Position numbers and translations under genes: made by a program | From: Nitrospira sp. | Lineage (GTDB): Bacteria; Nitrospirota; Nitrospiria; Nitrospirales; Nitrospiraceae | DNA length: 64,000 bases | NCBI GenBank assembly: GCA_024998645.1 | Contig: JACOEJ010000001.1 | Location: 1-64,000, forward strand | Direction: 5' to 3' | The notes under the pieces: model-generated | Database searches by the model: none | What the model was told of the DNA's origin: nothing | The model's input: the letters and a program-made list of their open reading frames with translations, nothing else | Part shown: positions 40,831-45,292 of the stretch, one piece after another | Position numbering within the stretch: position 1 is the first letter of the stretch | Layout: each line of letters begins with the position of its first letter

Positions 40831-42558
40831 ATGTATCGCCGGATCATGGCTTTCGACTTCGACGGCACACTGGCCGTCAACGGGGATGTGCCTCCCGAGG
40901 TGGAGTCGGCCTTGGCACGCTGCCGTGACAGCGGCCATGTGCTCTTCCTCGTCACGGGGCGCCGCTACGAAACCGTCCAGCTAGGCTATCTGGGAAGTCT
41001 GTTCGCCGGTATCGTCTGGGAAAACGGCGCAGTCCTGTCCCATGCGGCCAGCGGGGAGACGTACCTCCCGTTCGGGCAGCTCGACAGTCGATTGCTCAAG
41101 GCGATTGAAGAGGCAGGCATTCCATTCGAGCGAGGACTCGCCATCGCCGCGACCTGGACACCCCATGACCAGGCTCTCTGGCGCATTCTCAGCGCCCACG
41201 GCGGCAGCACGTCGGTCGAATACAACAAAGGCGCAGTCATGGTCCTGCCTCCTGGCGCGACAAAAGGCTCCGGTCTCGAACGGCTCCTCGCCTTGTGCGG
41301 TCTGTCGCCGAGAAACCTGGCGGCGTTCGGCGACGCCGAAAACGACCTCTCCATGATGACCTTGGCCGAGGTGTCTGTCGCGGTAGGCGATGCGGTCCCG
41401 GCCGTCAGAGAAATCGCCGATATCCTTGCCTCAGCCCCCGGCCCCCAGGGCGTCCTTGAAATTCTCAACGAGTATCCGCTGGGCGGGAAGTTCCTCGATA
41501 TTCCGCTCAAACGCGAACGGCAAATCTTGCTCGGACAGACCGACTCCGGCACGGTAATCAATATCCCCGCTGCCCGCTTAGCCGGGCGCAATCTGGGGGT
41601 CTTCGGCAATTCGGCAACCGGCAAATCCTGGATGGTCGGCTTGATCGCGGAAGGCCTGCATCATGAAGACTATCAGGTCCTCCTCATCGATCCAGAAGGG
41701 GACTTTCGCGGGCTCCGCGTCCTCCCGCGATTCGTGTCGGTGAGCGGCGACCGAACTACCCTCCCCCCTCCATCCGCCGTCGTCTCACTCCTTGATGAGG
41801 GAGGGGTGTCGCTGGTCCTCGATCTGAGTCAATATCCCATCAGCTTGCGGAGCCCATATATTGCGGAGCTGATCCGGGCGCTACGCCCGGTGCGCGAACG
41901 CAAATTTCGCCCCCACTGGATCGTCCTGGATGAAGCCCAGGAGTTTTTGCTTGAAGGGAGTGAAATCACAGGACTGCTCCGCCCATTGCTGGAAGCCGGC
42001 GGCTGGGCCTTCGTCTCCTACCGTCCGGACCGTTTGAGCGATTCGGTTCTCGCCTCCCTCCATCACCTGCTCTTGACCAGACTCACAGACCGCCAGATTG
42101 GGCAATGCCTGCAGACACACTGCGCGATCTGCAGTTTGAAAGGAGCAAATCTTCAACAGATTCCGATGGGAAGCGCCCTGCTCTGTGGGGGCGAACTCGT
42201 TCGTATGCGCCCGGCCATCCGGCGTGTCCCCCACATCCGCCATCTCTACAAATACCTCGATATCCCCCTTCCGCATGGGAAGCGCTTCTCTTTTAGAACG
42301 GAAACGGGATATCTCGGCATCGAAGCAGCGAGTCTGTATGAGTTGTCTCGTTTGATTTCGACCCTTCCGTTCGAAAGCCTCGAGTATCACGACCGGCGGG
42401 AAGATTTTGTGAAATGGGCCGACTGGACACTCGGCGACGGAGGACTCGCCTCACGACTTCGAAAGGTGGCGAATCGTCACTATCAGGGAGAGGAACTCCG
42501 TGAAGCGCTCAAACAAGTCGTGTCGACACACTACGAAGAGCTCCGGCAACTCCGGTAA
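40831..42558 (+). CDS. HAD-IIB phosphatase / HerA-like ATPase / DUF5752-like fusion
   Basis: N-term MAFDFDGTLAVNGDVPPEV...AAFGDAENDLSMM; middle GNSATGKSWMVGLIAEGL...VLLIDPEGDFRGL...WIVLDEAQEFLL; C-term RTETGYLGIEAASLYELSRLISTLPFESLEYHDRREDFVKWADWTLGD. Confidence 0.85.
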   Translation: MYRRIMAFDFDGTLAVNGDVPPEVESALARCRDSGHVLFLVTGRRYETVQLGYLGSLFAGIVWENGAVLSHAASGETYLPFGQLDSRLLKAIEEAGIPFERGLAIAATWTPHDQALWRILSAHGGSTSVEYNKGAVMVLPPGATKGSGLERLLALCGLSPRNLAAFGDAENDLSMMTLAEVSVAVGDAVPAVREIADILASAPGPQGVLEILNEYPLGGKFLDIPLKRERQILLGQTDSGTVINIPAARLAGRNLGVFGNSATGKSWMVGLIAEGLHHEDYQVLLIDPEGDFRGLRVLPRFVSVSGDRTTLPPPSAVVSLLDEGGVSLVLDLSQYPISLRSPYIAELIRALRPVRERKFRPHWIVLDEAQEFLLEGSEITGLLRPLLEAGGWAFVSYRPDRLSDSVLASLHHLLLTRLTDRQIGQCLQTHCAICSLKGANLQQIPMGSALLCGGELVRMRPAIRRVPHIRHLYKYLDIPLPHGKRFSFRTETGYLGIEAASLYELSRLISTLPFESLEYHDRREDFVKWADWTLGDGGLASRLRKVANRHYQGEELREALKQVVSTHYEELRQLR

Positions 42559-42607
42559 CCTCGTCCCATAAGGAAGCCGGGAACTATTCGCGCCTCTTGT
42601 CTTGCCT

Positions 42608-45292
42608 ATGACCGGATGTGACACGCTACAGGCTTTTGTTCGCGCGCTGGCTGCTCAGAGGAACCGCCCGGCGCTTCTGGCGTTCCACAAACCTACAATC
42701 GAAACATGGTCTTTTGCAGAGCTGGTGGATGCCGCCACGCGGCTGGCCTCAGGTCTTCTAGAGGCTGGTCTGCGTGACGGCGAGCCTGTGGCGATCTACT
42801 CGCCGAACCGGGTCGAATGGATCATCGCCTGCCTGGCCCTGCTGGATGCGGGCGCCTTGCCGGTTCCCATCGACTCTCAGATGGCGAGCGACGACCTCGC
42901 ACATGTGCTCGAGGACAGCGGGGCTCGGCGGCTGATAACCATTCGCCCTCTGGCGGACCGCTTAACGACACTGGGTCTCCACCGGGACCGCTCCATCATA
43001 GTATTGGATGCCGACAAGGATGATCCCCGGAGCTGGCAACAGTTCCGGCAGGAACCGGCACGCACAGGCCCTTCCGTAAAGCCTGAGAATCCAGCCTTGA
43101 TGTTTTACACCTCCGGCGTCAGCGGCCGGCCCAAAGGCGTGCCGTTGAGCCATCGCAATCTCATGTCCAATCTCCAGGGGCTGCTGACCGCGCAGGTCTA
43201 CCGCCCCGATGAACGGCTGCTCCTGCCGTTGCCGCTGCACCACGTGTATCCCTTTATGATCGGACTCCTTGCACCGTTCGCGCTGGGGCTTCCTGTCATC
43301 CTTCCCCATTCACTGACCGGGCCTCAGATCCTGCGCGCCCTGCGGGAAGGTCGCGTCACCGCAATCGTCGGGGTCACTCGACTCTATTCCGCGCTGTACG
43401 CGGCGATCGAGCAGCAGGTGCGACAGAAAGGACGGGGCCTCTCCGCAGCCTTTCACGGGATGCTCATGCTGTCCGCTCTGTTGATTCGATATGGGAACAT
43501 CCGGCTCGGTCTGCGCCTGTTCGCCCCGCTCCGCGCGCAGGTGGCACCGGAGCTGAGATCGTTGGTCTATGGCGGAGCCGGGCTGCCGCCGGATCTCGCC
43601 TGGCGATTGGCGGGATTGGGCTGGCAGATCGCCGGAGGCTTCGGACTCACGGAAACGTCCCCGATTCTCACGCTCATCGCCCCCGGCAGCCGGCACATTG
43701 ACACGGCGGGCACACCGCTCCCCGGTGTTCATATCCGCATCGCCGATCCGGACCCGGCCAGCGGCCAGGGGGAAATCCAGGCCCGGGGCCCCAATGTGTT
43801 TGCCGGCTATCTGCATCTGCCGCACAAGACAGTTGAAGCGTTCACTCAAGACGGCTGGTTCAGAACAGGCGATGTAGGCTTCATCGATAAGAACGGGTGC
43901 GTGCGCCTGGTCGGGCGCGCCTCCTCCCGTATCACCTTACCCGGCGGCGAAAAGATCTGGCCTGAGCGGGTGGAGGACGTCCTGGATGGCGCTCCCTCGA
44001 TCAGGGAAACGGGCGTGCTCGCTTACGAAGGCCGCCTGGTGGGAGTCATCGTCCCGCGCGCCGCCGCGATCCAAGCAGGCGAGCGGGATGCCGTGACACG
44101 CCTGATCCGTGCTGAGATTGAAGCGCGCCTGGGCCTCCTGCCTTCATATTGTCGTCTCACCGACTTCACGCTCAGCCTCGACCCCTTACCTCGAACGCGA
44201 CTCGGCAAGATCCAACGCCATAAACTCGACGATCTCTTCGCAGCGGGCAAACAGCGACAGGACAAGGCCCTCGTCGAATCGCGACCGATCCCCATCGAGC
44301 TGATGGCGCCGGAAGACCGGCAATTGCTGGAAGATCCTGTCGTGTTGCGAATGTGGAACTGGCTGGCCGGCCGGTTTCCCGCCCTGCGGCTCACCCCAGA
44401 CACTGCTCTGTCGCTCGAACTGGGTCTGGACTCACTGGAATGGATGTCGATGACGCTGGAGCTGCGCGACCAGGTCAGCGTCGATCTGCCTGAAGAAGCC
44501 CTCCAACGGATCGGAACCGTGAGGGATCTGCTGCGGGAAGCAAGCGAAGCTGAAGAGGCGACCAGCGCGGCGATTGATCCGACGGTTCAACTCGCGCAGC
44601 CGGAAGAGCTGCTCGATCCACGACAACGGCGCTGGATTGCGGAGAGGGGATGGTTCTTACGAAGACTCGGGGCAGTGCTGTTTGGGCTCGACCGACTGCT
44701 CATGCGATCGCTGTTCGATTTCGAAATCCTTGGGGCCGAGCGGATACCGGCACAAGGCGCCTGCGTCCTGACACCCAATCATGCCAGCCTGCTCGATCCG
44801 CCGGCCCTCATTGCTGCGCTGCCCGCCGGTTTCGTGAACCGGACCTACTGGGGAGGGTGGACTGGGATTATGTTTCGCGATCCCGTGATGCGCCTCGTCA
44901 GCCGAGCGACGCGTGTCTTCCCCGTTGACCAGAGCAGCCGTCCGTTGACGAACCTTGGCCTCGGCGCGACTGTACTCGCGCGCGGCCATAATCTGGTGTG
45001 GTTTCCCGAAGGAAGTCGATCTCCGGACGGCACGCTCCGGCCGTTTCAGCCTGGAATCGGTTTGATTCTGGCGGCTCATCCGGTCCCGGTCGTTCCCGTC
45101 CGCATCGAGGGGAGCTTTGAAGCGCTTCCGCCCGGCGCATGGTGGCCGCGCCGACGACGGATCACGATCATATTCGGCCGAGCGCTCAACCCGACCGCAC
45201 TTGTCGGACAGAGTGAGGGAGCCGAACGCTATCGAGAGATCGCAGCCGCGCTTCATGATCATATCGCAGGACTGGGCGTTCATCCCGAATAA
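42608..45292 (+). CDS. AMP-dependent acyl ligase / acyl carrier / PlsC acyltransferase fusion
   Basis: MFYTSGVSGRPKGVPLSHRNL; GGFGLTETSP; LGLDSLEWMSMTLEL (carrier Ser); NHASLLDPPAL and WFPEGSRSPDG acyltransferase motifs. Confidence 0.93.
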   Translation: MTGCDTLQAFVRALAAQRNRPALLAFHKPTIETWSFAELVDAATRLASGLLEAGLRDGEPVAIYSPNRVEWIIACLALLDAGALPVPIDSQMASDDLAHVLEDSGARRLITIRPLADRLTTLGLHRDRSIIVLDADKDDPRSWQQFRQEPARTGPSVKPENPALMFYTSGVSGRPKGVPLSHRNLMSNLQGLLTAQVYRPDERLLLPLPLHHVYPFMIGLLAPFALGLPVILPHSLTGPQILRALREGRVTAIVGVTRLYSALYAAIEQQVRQKGRGLSAAFHGMLMLSALLIRYGNIRLGLRLFAPLRAQVAPELRSLVYGGAGLPPDLAWRLAGLGWQIAGGFGLTETSPILTLIAPGSRHIDTAGTPLPGVHIRIADPDPASGQGEIQARGPNVFAGYLHLPHKTVEAFTQDGWFRTGDVGFIDKNGCVRLVGRASSRITLPGGEKIWPERVEDVLDGAPSIRETGVLAYEGRLVGVIVPRAAAIQAGERDAVTRLIRAEIEARLGLLPSYCRLTDFTLSLDPLPRTRLGKIQRHKLDDLFAAGKQRQDKALVESRPIPIELMAPEDRQLLEDPVVLRMWNWLAGRFPALRLTPDTALSLELGLDSLEWMSMTLELRDQVSVDLPEEALQRIGTVRDLLREASEAEEATSAAIDPTVQLAQPEELLDPRQRRWIAERGWFLRRLGAVLFGLDRLLMRSLFDFEILGAERIPAQGACVLTPNHASLLDPPALIAALPAGFVNRTYWGGWTGIMFRDPVMRLVSRATRVFPVDQSSRPLTNLGLGATVLARGHNLVWFPEGSRSPDGTLRPFQPGIGLILAAHPVPVVPVRIEGSFEALPPGAWWPRRRRITIIFGRALNPTALVGQSEGAERYREIAAALHDHIAGLGVHPE

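Follow-up and report, generated by a model that had tools for sequence, protein, structure and literature searches.

The HerA/FtsK-class ATPases (DUF87) are movers of DNA or protein. Their structurally characterized member HerA from Sulfolobus solfataricus (PDB 4d2i) has about 500 aa and combines a RecA-like core with a HAS barrel and a helical bundle. In the Sir2-HerA and HerA-DUF4297 defence complexes, a HerA-type ATPase is paired with an effector enzyme. The HAD-IIB phosphatases with a cap usually act on small molecules; Pyrococcus PH1421 (1wr8), Thermoplasma TA0175 and the Cof-YidA enzymes belong to this group. The OrfY protein (4CSO, PDB title 'ORFY PROTEIN, TRANSCRIPTION FACTOR'), which we take to come from Thermoproteus tenax, is built of two tandem units, as is the free-standing DUF5752 protein. 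A msc-gt-tpsp operon and a trehalose synthase complex have been reported from T. tenax (PMC3634074).

The window analysed here is a stretch of 64,000 nucleotides from Nitrospira sp., in which one gene joins parts of these systems in a single polypeptide. The parts are known, and their arrangement is undescribed but widespread; a literature search for a HAD-HerA fusion revealed no description that we could recognize. The features are as follows.

40831 to 42558, + strand: the whole fusion gene for 575 aa, with HAD-IIB, HerA-like ATPase and DUF5752 unit (ORF, Pfam, family alignment)
40831 to 41475, + strand: HAD-IIB phosphatase domain, residues 1-215 (Pfam Hydrolase_3, 2.2e-26; TIGR01484 above cut-off; Foldseek 1wr8, TMt 0.80)
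40855 to 40869, + strand: HAD motif I DFDGT, residues 9-13 (D9 and D11 in 58/58 rows; the motif was among the row-selection criteria)
41053 to 41250, + strand: short C2-type cap, about residues 75-140, located between motifs II and III (AlphaFold2 model, DSSP)
41263 to 41346, + strand: HAD motifs III and IV, from K145 to GDAEND, residues 145-172 with GDAEND at 167-172 (K145 and D172 58/58, D168 57/58)
41521 to 42255, + strand: HerA/FtsK-type RecA ATPase core, residues 231-475 (DUF87, 1.0e-07; top Foldseek match of residues 222-575 is HerA 4d2i, E 5e-10)
41605 to 41628, + strand: Walker A GNSATGKS, residues 259-266 (K265 and S266 58/58; motif used for row selection)
41689 to 41703, + strand: DPEGD motif after strand 2, residues 287-291 (alignment; motif used for row selection)
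41917 to 41934, + strand: Walker B WIVLDE with catalytic Glu E368, in WIVLDEAQEF, residues 363-372 (E368 58/58, not a selection criterion)
42106 to 42132, + strand: CLQTHCAIC stretch, residues 426-434 (Cys not conserved across the family)
42220 to 42255, + strand: R..RH..KY stretch after the ATPase core, residues 464-475 (R470 58/58, H471 57/58, K474 55/58)
42271 to 42555, + strand: DUF5752/OrfY-type unit in single copy, residues 481-575 (hhalign to free-standing DUF5752 98%, E 1.6e-13; 4cso_A 1.1e-05)

The ORF runs from ATG to stop without an internal stop, and on the opposite strand this span is interrupted by stops. Pfam matches follow from the N- to the C-terminus as Hydrolase_3, DUF87 and DUF5752 (5.5e-05); the last lies exactly at the curated cut-off (23 of 23 bits) and covers half of the profile. 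In the family alignment, Hydrolase_3 and DUF87 were matched by 20/20 members and DUF5752 by 17/20 at E <= 0.001. The first-pass annotation, made from the letters alone, had proposed one continuous reading frame with these three domains as an unusual fusion, and both this architecture and its oddity are supported: the HerA and DUF5752 assignments survive the HMM searches, and the motifs DFDGT, GDAEND, GNSATGKS and WIVLDEAQEF are all found. A search for the same domain order recovered it in several phyla with conserved junctions, and so it is not peculiar to one genome with frameshift-prone junctions. A frameshift or assembly artefact is excluded by the uninterrupted fusion in many independent genomes.

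All four HAD motifs (DxD, T/S, K and GDxxxD) are there, and the column of T42 holds T or S in 58/58 rows. With 65.4 bits for TIGR01484 (cut-off 41.8) and a C2-type cap, the domain falls within the HAD-IIB class. It has the four motifs, the short cap and the fold in common with the PH1421, TA0175 and Cof-YidA group (TMt 0.80 for PH1421 and 0.79 for TA0175); the Foldseek matches also include trehalose-6-phosphate phosphatase (T6PP) and sucrose phosphatase. However, the fusion differs from that group in being joined to an ATPase and in scoring below the curated cut-off of every specific equivalog (phosphoglycolate, T6P, sucrose-6-P and MPG phosphatases). The closest NCBIfam equivalog is the archaeal phosphoglycolate phosphatase TIGR01487 (1.6e-21), at 77.1 bits against a cut-off of 122.75, and the others are far below theirs. 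The S6PP model was matched in 20/20 family members; the T6PP model had no match in the HMM scan of the fusion protein, and the HAD part is not OtsB-like by HMM.

The ATPase shares with HerA the RecA-like core, the Walker A, the acidic strand-2 motif and the DE Walker B. Besides HerA, the Foldseek search with residues 222-575 also matched Sir2/HerA rings and HerA-DUF4297 complexes. The core of the fusion has only about 245 aa; the N-terminal HAS barrel and the inserted helical bundle of HerA are both absent here, and the secondary structure of the AlphaFold2 models shows the HAD domain followed by a bare RecA core. In these models the N-terminal HAD domain takes the position of the HAS barrel of HerA. 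No NurA partner was recognized among the examined neighbours. A role as a DNA or protein pump is not supported, given the missing barrel and bundle and the absence of a recognized nuclease partner such as NurA in the loci seen. The full protein was modelled from an alignment of 28 sequences with a mean pLDDT of 88.0 and a pTM of 0.78, and residues 222-575 alone with 87.2 and 0.72; all models are of monomers, which do not predict ring assembly.

A possible metal site had also been proposed in the ATPase, under the misquoted string CATHCAIC (the true one is CLQTHCAIC). The aligned position 431 holds Cys in 17 of the 28 subfamily-A rows, and in subfamily B Cys is outside the five commonest residues there; the stretch is therefore not a conserved metal site, and the 58-row alignment rules out a CxxxHCxxC site by its lack of Cys conservation. 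Judged by its conservation, the R..RH..KY stretch is a candidate for trans-acting or contact residues.

The tail of about 95 aa corresponds to one DUF5752 unit, so the protein lacks the two-unit form. Profile comparison by hhalign aligned it with unit 2 of free-standing DUF5752 (98.0%, E 1.6e-13) and with unit 1 (97.2%, E 4.2e-11); the two units also match each other (99%, E 4.5e-18). The free-standing protein is homologous to OrfY 4CSO (3.9e-17), and the family profile with the tail matches 4cso_A. The profile-profile comparison and the 4CSO match exclude a chance DUF5752 hit at the cut-off. The tail shares with OrfY the signature H...DF..W...D..LA, and its H520, D525 and W529 are invariant in 58 non-redundant members; whereas OrfY and free-standing DUF5752 have two tandem units, the fusion has one. 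Literature searches found no paper on DUF5752 and no relevant one on OrfY/4CSO.

No free-standing DUF5752 was found in the genome of the window (about 89% complete). In most of ten regions elsewhere, which were picked from DUF5752 matches and are not a random sample, it adjoins TreT-like GT4, TreS, maltokinase, trehalase-like GH15 or OtsAB. In two genomes it is fused to an MscS channel: at L194:6472-7848 (-) and L195:5981-7357 (-), MscS is joined to a complete two-unit DUF5752, beside a trehalose-phosphatase-like HAD gene and a GT4 whose cluster also contains TreT-like enzymes. These two loci show an apparent channel-osmolyte link in Nitrospirota. The OrfY-type modules of Nitrospirota thus sit in MscS/GT4/trehalose gene sets comparable to the T. 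tenax operon (PMC3634074); the fusion gene in the window, by contrast, does not lie within such an operon, and by HMM its HAD part is not of the OtsB type.

Scanning a single genome from each species yielded 38 loci, almost all of them with the full architecture; they come from Nitrospira, Sedimenticola/Gammaproteobacteria, Anaerolineae, Bacteroidota and a deltaproteobacterium assigned to Myxococcota. Overall, full-length relatives occur in Nitrospirota, Pseudomonadota, Chloroflexota, Myxococcota-type deltaproteobacteria, Bacteroidota and on one cyanobacterial plasmid. In the whole-genome samples, full-length members were present in about 20 of 198 Nitrospirota, 8 of 249 genomes of the Sedimenticola phylum, 4 of 141 of the Myxococcota-type phylum (plus one match over 4-405) and 11 of 151 Chloroflexota (plus one degenerate copy); the sole Bacteroidota match was the seed genome itself. 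A phage origin was rejected, as no relative was confirmed among IMG/VR viral contigs and the PHROGs matches are generic HAD and P-loop ones.

The family divides into two subfamilies, A and B. Subfamily B is about 29% identical, with a motif I of the form D-Y-D-N/G-T, and is found in other Nitrospira, on replicons of Sinorhizobium, Aminobacter, Caballeronia, Paraburkholderia and Agrobacterium, and on a Synechococcus plasmid; the only label in the annotated records seen was HAD (family) hydrolase. In a few lineages the gene is divided at the boundary between domains, or the HAD part stands alone. In the single-contig genome G172, the HAD part (233 aa) is encoded by one gene and the ATPase-tail part (345 aa) by its neighbour; the HAD stop lies 25 bases before the start of the ATPase gene. 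HAD-only relatives occur on a Nostoc plasmid, in several proteobacteria and in Chloroflexota. In a quick tree with several weak branches they are nested in subfamily B, which suggests that the ATPase and tail were lost repeatedly; the same nesting, weak as the branches are, led us to reject the HAD-only form as the ancestral state.

Among 58 non-redundant members, the catalytic residues of both enzymes are retained. K145, D172, E368 and R470 are invariant, the first three without having served as selection criteria. D9, D11, K265 and D287 are invariant too, but rows were gathered with the help of the motifs in which these residues lie. Comparing the window gene with six close relatives gave dN/dS values of 0.02-0.10 for all domains and both junctions where computable, as low for the ATPase as for the HAD part. 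Strong purifying selection thus acts across both junctions.

The neighbourhoods of the fusion gene differ strongly, even inside Nitrospira, but genes for stress or low-oxygen conditions are frequent in them. In subfamily A a CBS-domain gene lies near in many loci, and Hsp20, a COG1926-type phosphoribosyltransferase, Usp, MgtC/DUF4010, an ADP-forming acyl-CoA ligase and PEP-utilising enzymes are further neighbours. PEP synthase is likewise among the genes around the fusion. Subfamily B is accompanied by TreZ, debranching enzyme, Ku, catalase, a FAD-Rieske protein, cytochrome bd, PRC-barrel and Slp; its members from rhizobia and Burkholderiales have OtsA, debranching enzyme, GT4, CBS, Usp and phosphoketolase nearby. 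A stress-panel gene was present in 30 of 59 fusion loci and 3 of 40 control windows, most of which came from genomes that also supplied fusion loci; this is a tendency and not a test, and its p-value overstates the contrast, because the panel was picked after inspecting the neighbourhoods and related loci are not independent. Trehalose/glycogen panel genes were found in 6/31 subfamily-B loci, 0/28 subfamily-A loci and 1/40 controls, and no trehalose gene was seen among the window genes adjoining the fusion. For the fusion itself, the connection to trehalose is therefore weak. The carbohydrate connection in the first-pass annotation is supported indirectly by the OrfY/DUF5752 tail, whose relatives lie beside trehalose genes, and by the genes for TreZ, debranching enzyme, OtsA and GT4 near subfamily-B members. 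Microoxia in Bradyrhizobium induces similar gene sets, including the unspecified HAD family hydrolase blr3815 (PMC6515984), which is matched by label only.

Directly downstream of the fusion in the window, at 42602-45292 (+), is a gene for an 896-aa AMP-binding, carrier protein and acyltransferase fusion. The first-pass annotation had asked whether this linkage is conserved. The neighbour is common to near Nitrospira relatives only, and its panel protein matches 4/40 control windows too; a conserved partnership was thus rejected. Scans for promoters and terminators gave nothing above chance.

These data might be explained by a protein in which a HerA-type ATPase is the scaffold of a stress-linked small-molecule phosphatase, a reading that we prefer tentatively and put a little short of an even chance. 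The HAD-IIB domain would cleave a phosphate ester, with a sugar phosphate or similar small metabolite as the likeliest substrate. The ATPase core would probably allow subunits to assemble, plausibly into a ring, and ATP binding or hydrolysis would switch the phosphatase activity or access to it rather than move DNA. The single OrfY/DUF5752 unit would probably dock the enzyme to partners, or sense conditions, in the metabolism of osmolytes or carbon reserves (trehalose, glycogen), and the gene might be expressed under osmotic, desiccation or low-oxygen stress. The HAD-only relatives and the split form show that the covalent linkage is dispensable in some cases. A fuller version, possible but doubtful, is an undescribed class of NTP-driven enzyme with several HAD heads on a HerA-type ring. 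ATP turnover would gate the metabolite phosphatase in it, and the OrfY unit would link it to osmolyte metabolism.

The strongest rival is an ordinary housekeeping HAD phosphatase of the phosphoglycolate type for damage control, working as a monomer or dimer, with the ATPase a vestigial motor and mere nucleotide sensor. It would fit the archaeal phosphoglycolate phosphatase as closest equivalog, the nested HAD-only relatives and the Chloroflexota member at L183:1414-3564 (-), a possibly decaying copy with a degenerate Walker A (GHREARSR). However, the Walker A, DPEGD and E368 are otherwise retained in both subfamilies (the first two partly via row selection), and the ATPase evolves under as low a dN/dS as the HAD part; we consider this rival unlikely. 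It seems quite improbable that the protein is a DNA-acting machine, whose ATPase would encircle and move DNA like HerA while the HAD part trims phosphates of DNA ends or nucleotides in post-desiccation repair. HerA is the top fold match, and Ku, an EEP-family nuclease/phosphatase and catalase are near neighbours in one Nitrospira subfamily-B clade; but Ku is confined to that clade, outside it no NurA or other nuclease partner was seen adjoining the fusion, the HAS barrel and helical bundle are absent, and the usual substrates of capped HAD-IIB enzymes are small molecules.

Two further rivals have very little to recommend them. At L035, L036, L119 and L121, all of one Nitrospira clade, the gene is flanked by hypF on one side and hypC-hypD-hypE on the other, within an operon for a NiFe hydrogenase (spans L036:3617-9254 and L119:5372-11007), and comammox Nitrospira carry a group 3 hydrogenase (PMC5596200). 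An accessory enzyme of hydrogenase maturation, with carbamoyl phosphate or a related intermediate of that pathway as one conceivable substrate, would explain this position; but it is limited to that clade, no hydrogenase gene was recognized near the fusion in the window or the other examined loci, and we regard the idea as very improbable. Anti-phage defence by a HerA ring with a HAD phosphatase effector is given the least weight of all. The Foldseek matches to Sir2/HerA and HerA-DUF4297 complexes speak for it, as do weak PADLOC matches to HerA and mad8, confined to about 40-70 residues of the P-loop, which fall short of the model coverage in PADLOC. Unlike those complexes, the fusion is a single polypeptide with a phosphatase in place of the NADase or nuclease; its neighbours are of the stress type, with no defence genes noted among those annotated or Pfam-scanned, and IMG/VR held no confirmed relative.

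If the preferred reading, a HerA-class motor wired to a small-molecule phosphatase, is true, such motors have been reused for metabolic control and not for moving polymers. Although the family spans several phyla and includes nitrifiers and rhizobial replicons, the annotated records seen call it nothing more than 'HAD family hydrolase'. Recognized as half of an OrfY protein, the tail ties a Pfam domain that has no name to gene sets for trehalose and for mechanosensitive channels, and this link offers a concrete start for experiments on both the fusion and DUF5752.

Some members depart from the common form. Larger fusions (ORFs of 983-1235 aa at L153, L156 and L179) were rejected, as they look like upstream extensions in GC-rich DNA with the usual family start. 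At L118:6134-7866 (-) in genome G146, a subfamily-B copy is split inside the ATPase into two ORFs and may be a pseudogene, a split gene or a sequencing error; the same genome has an intact subfamily-A copy. The deltaproteobacterial genome G222 (L168-L172, L147-L152) carries five or more copies that are full-length or nearly so, in addition to partial ones, and two of its copies are in tandem (L169).
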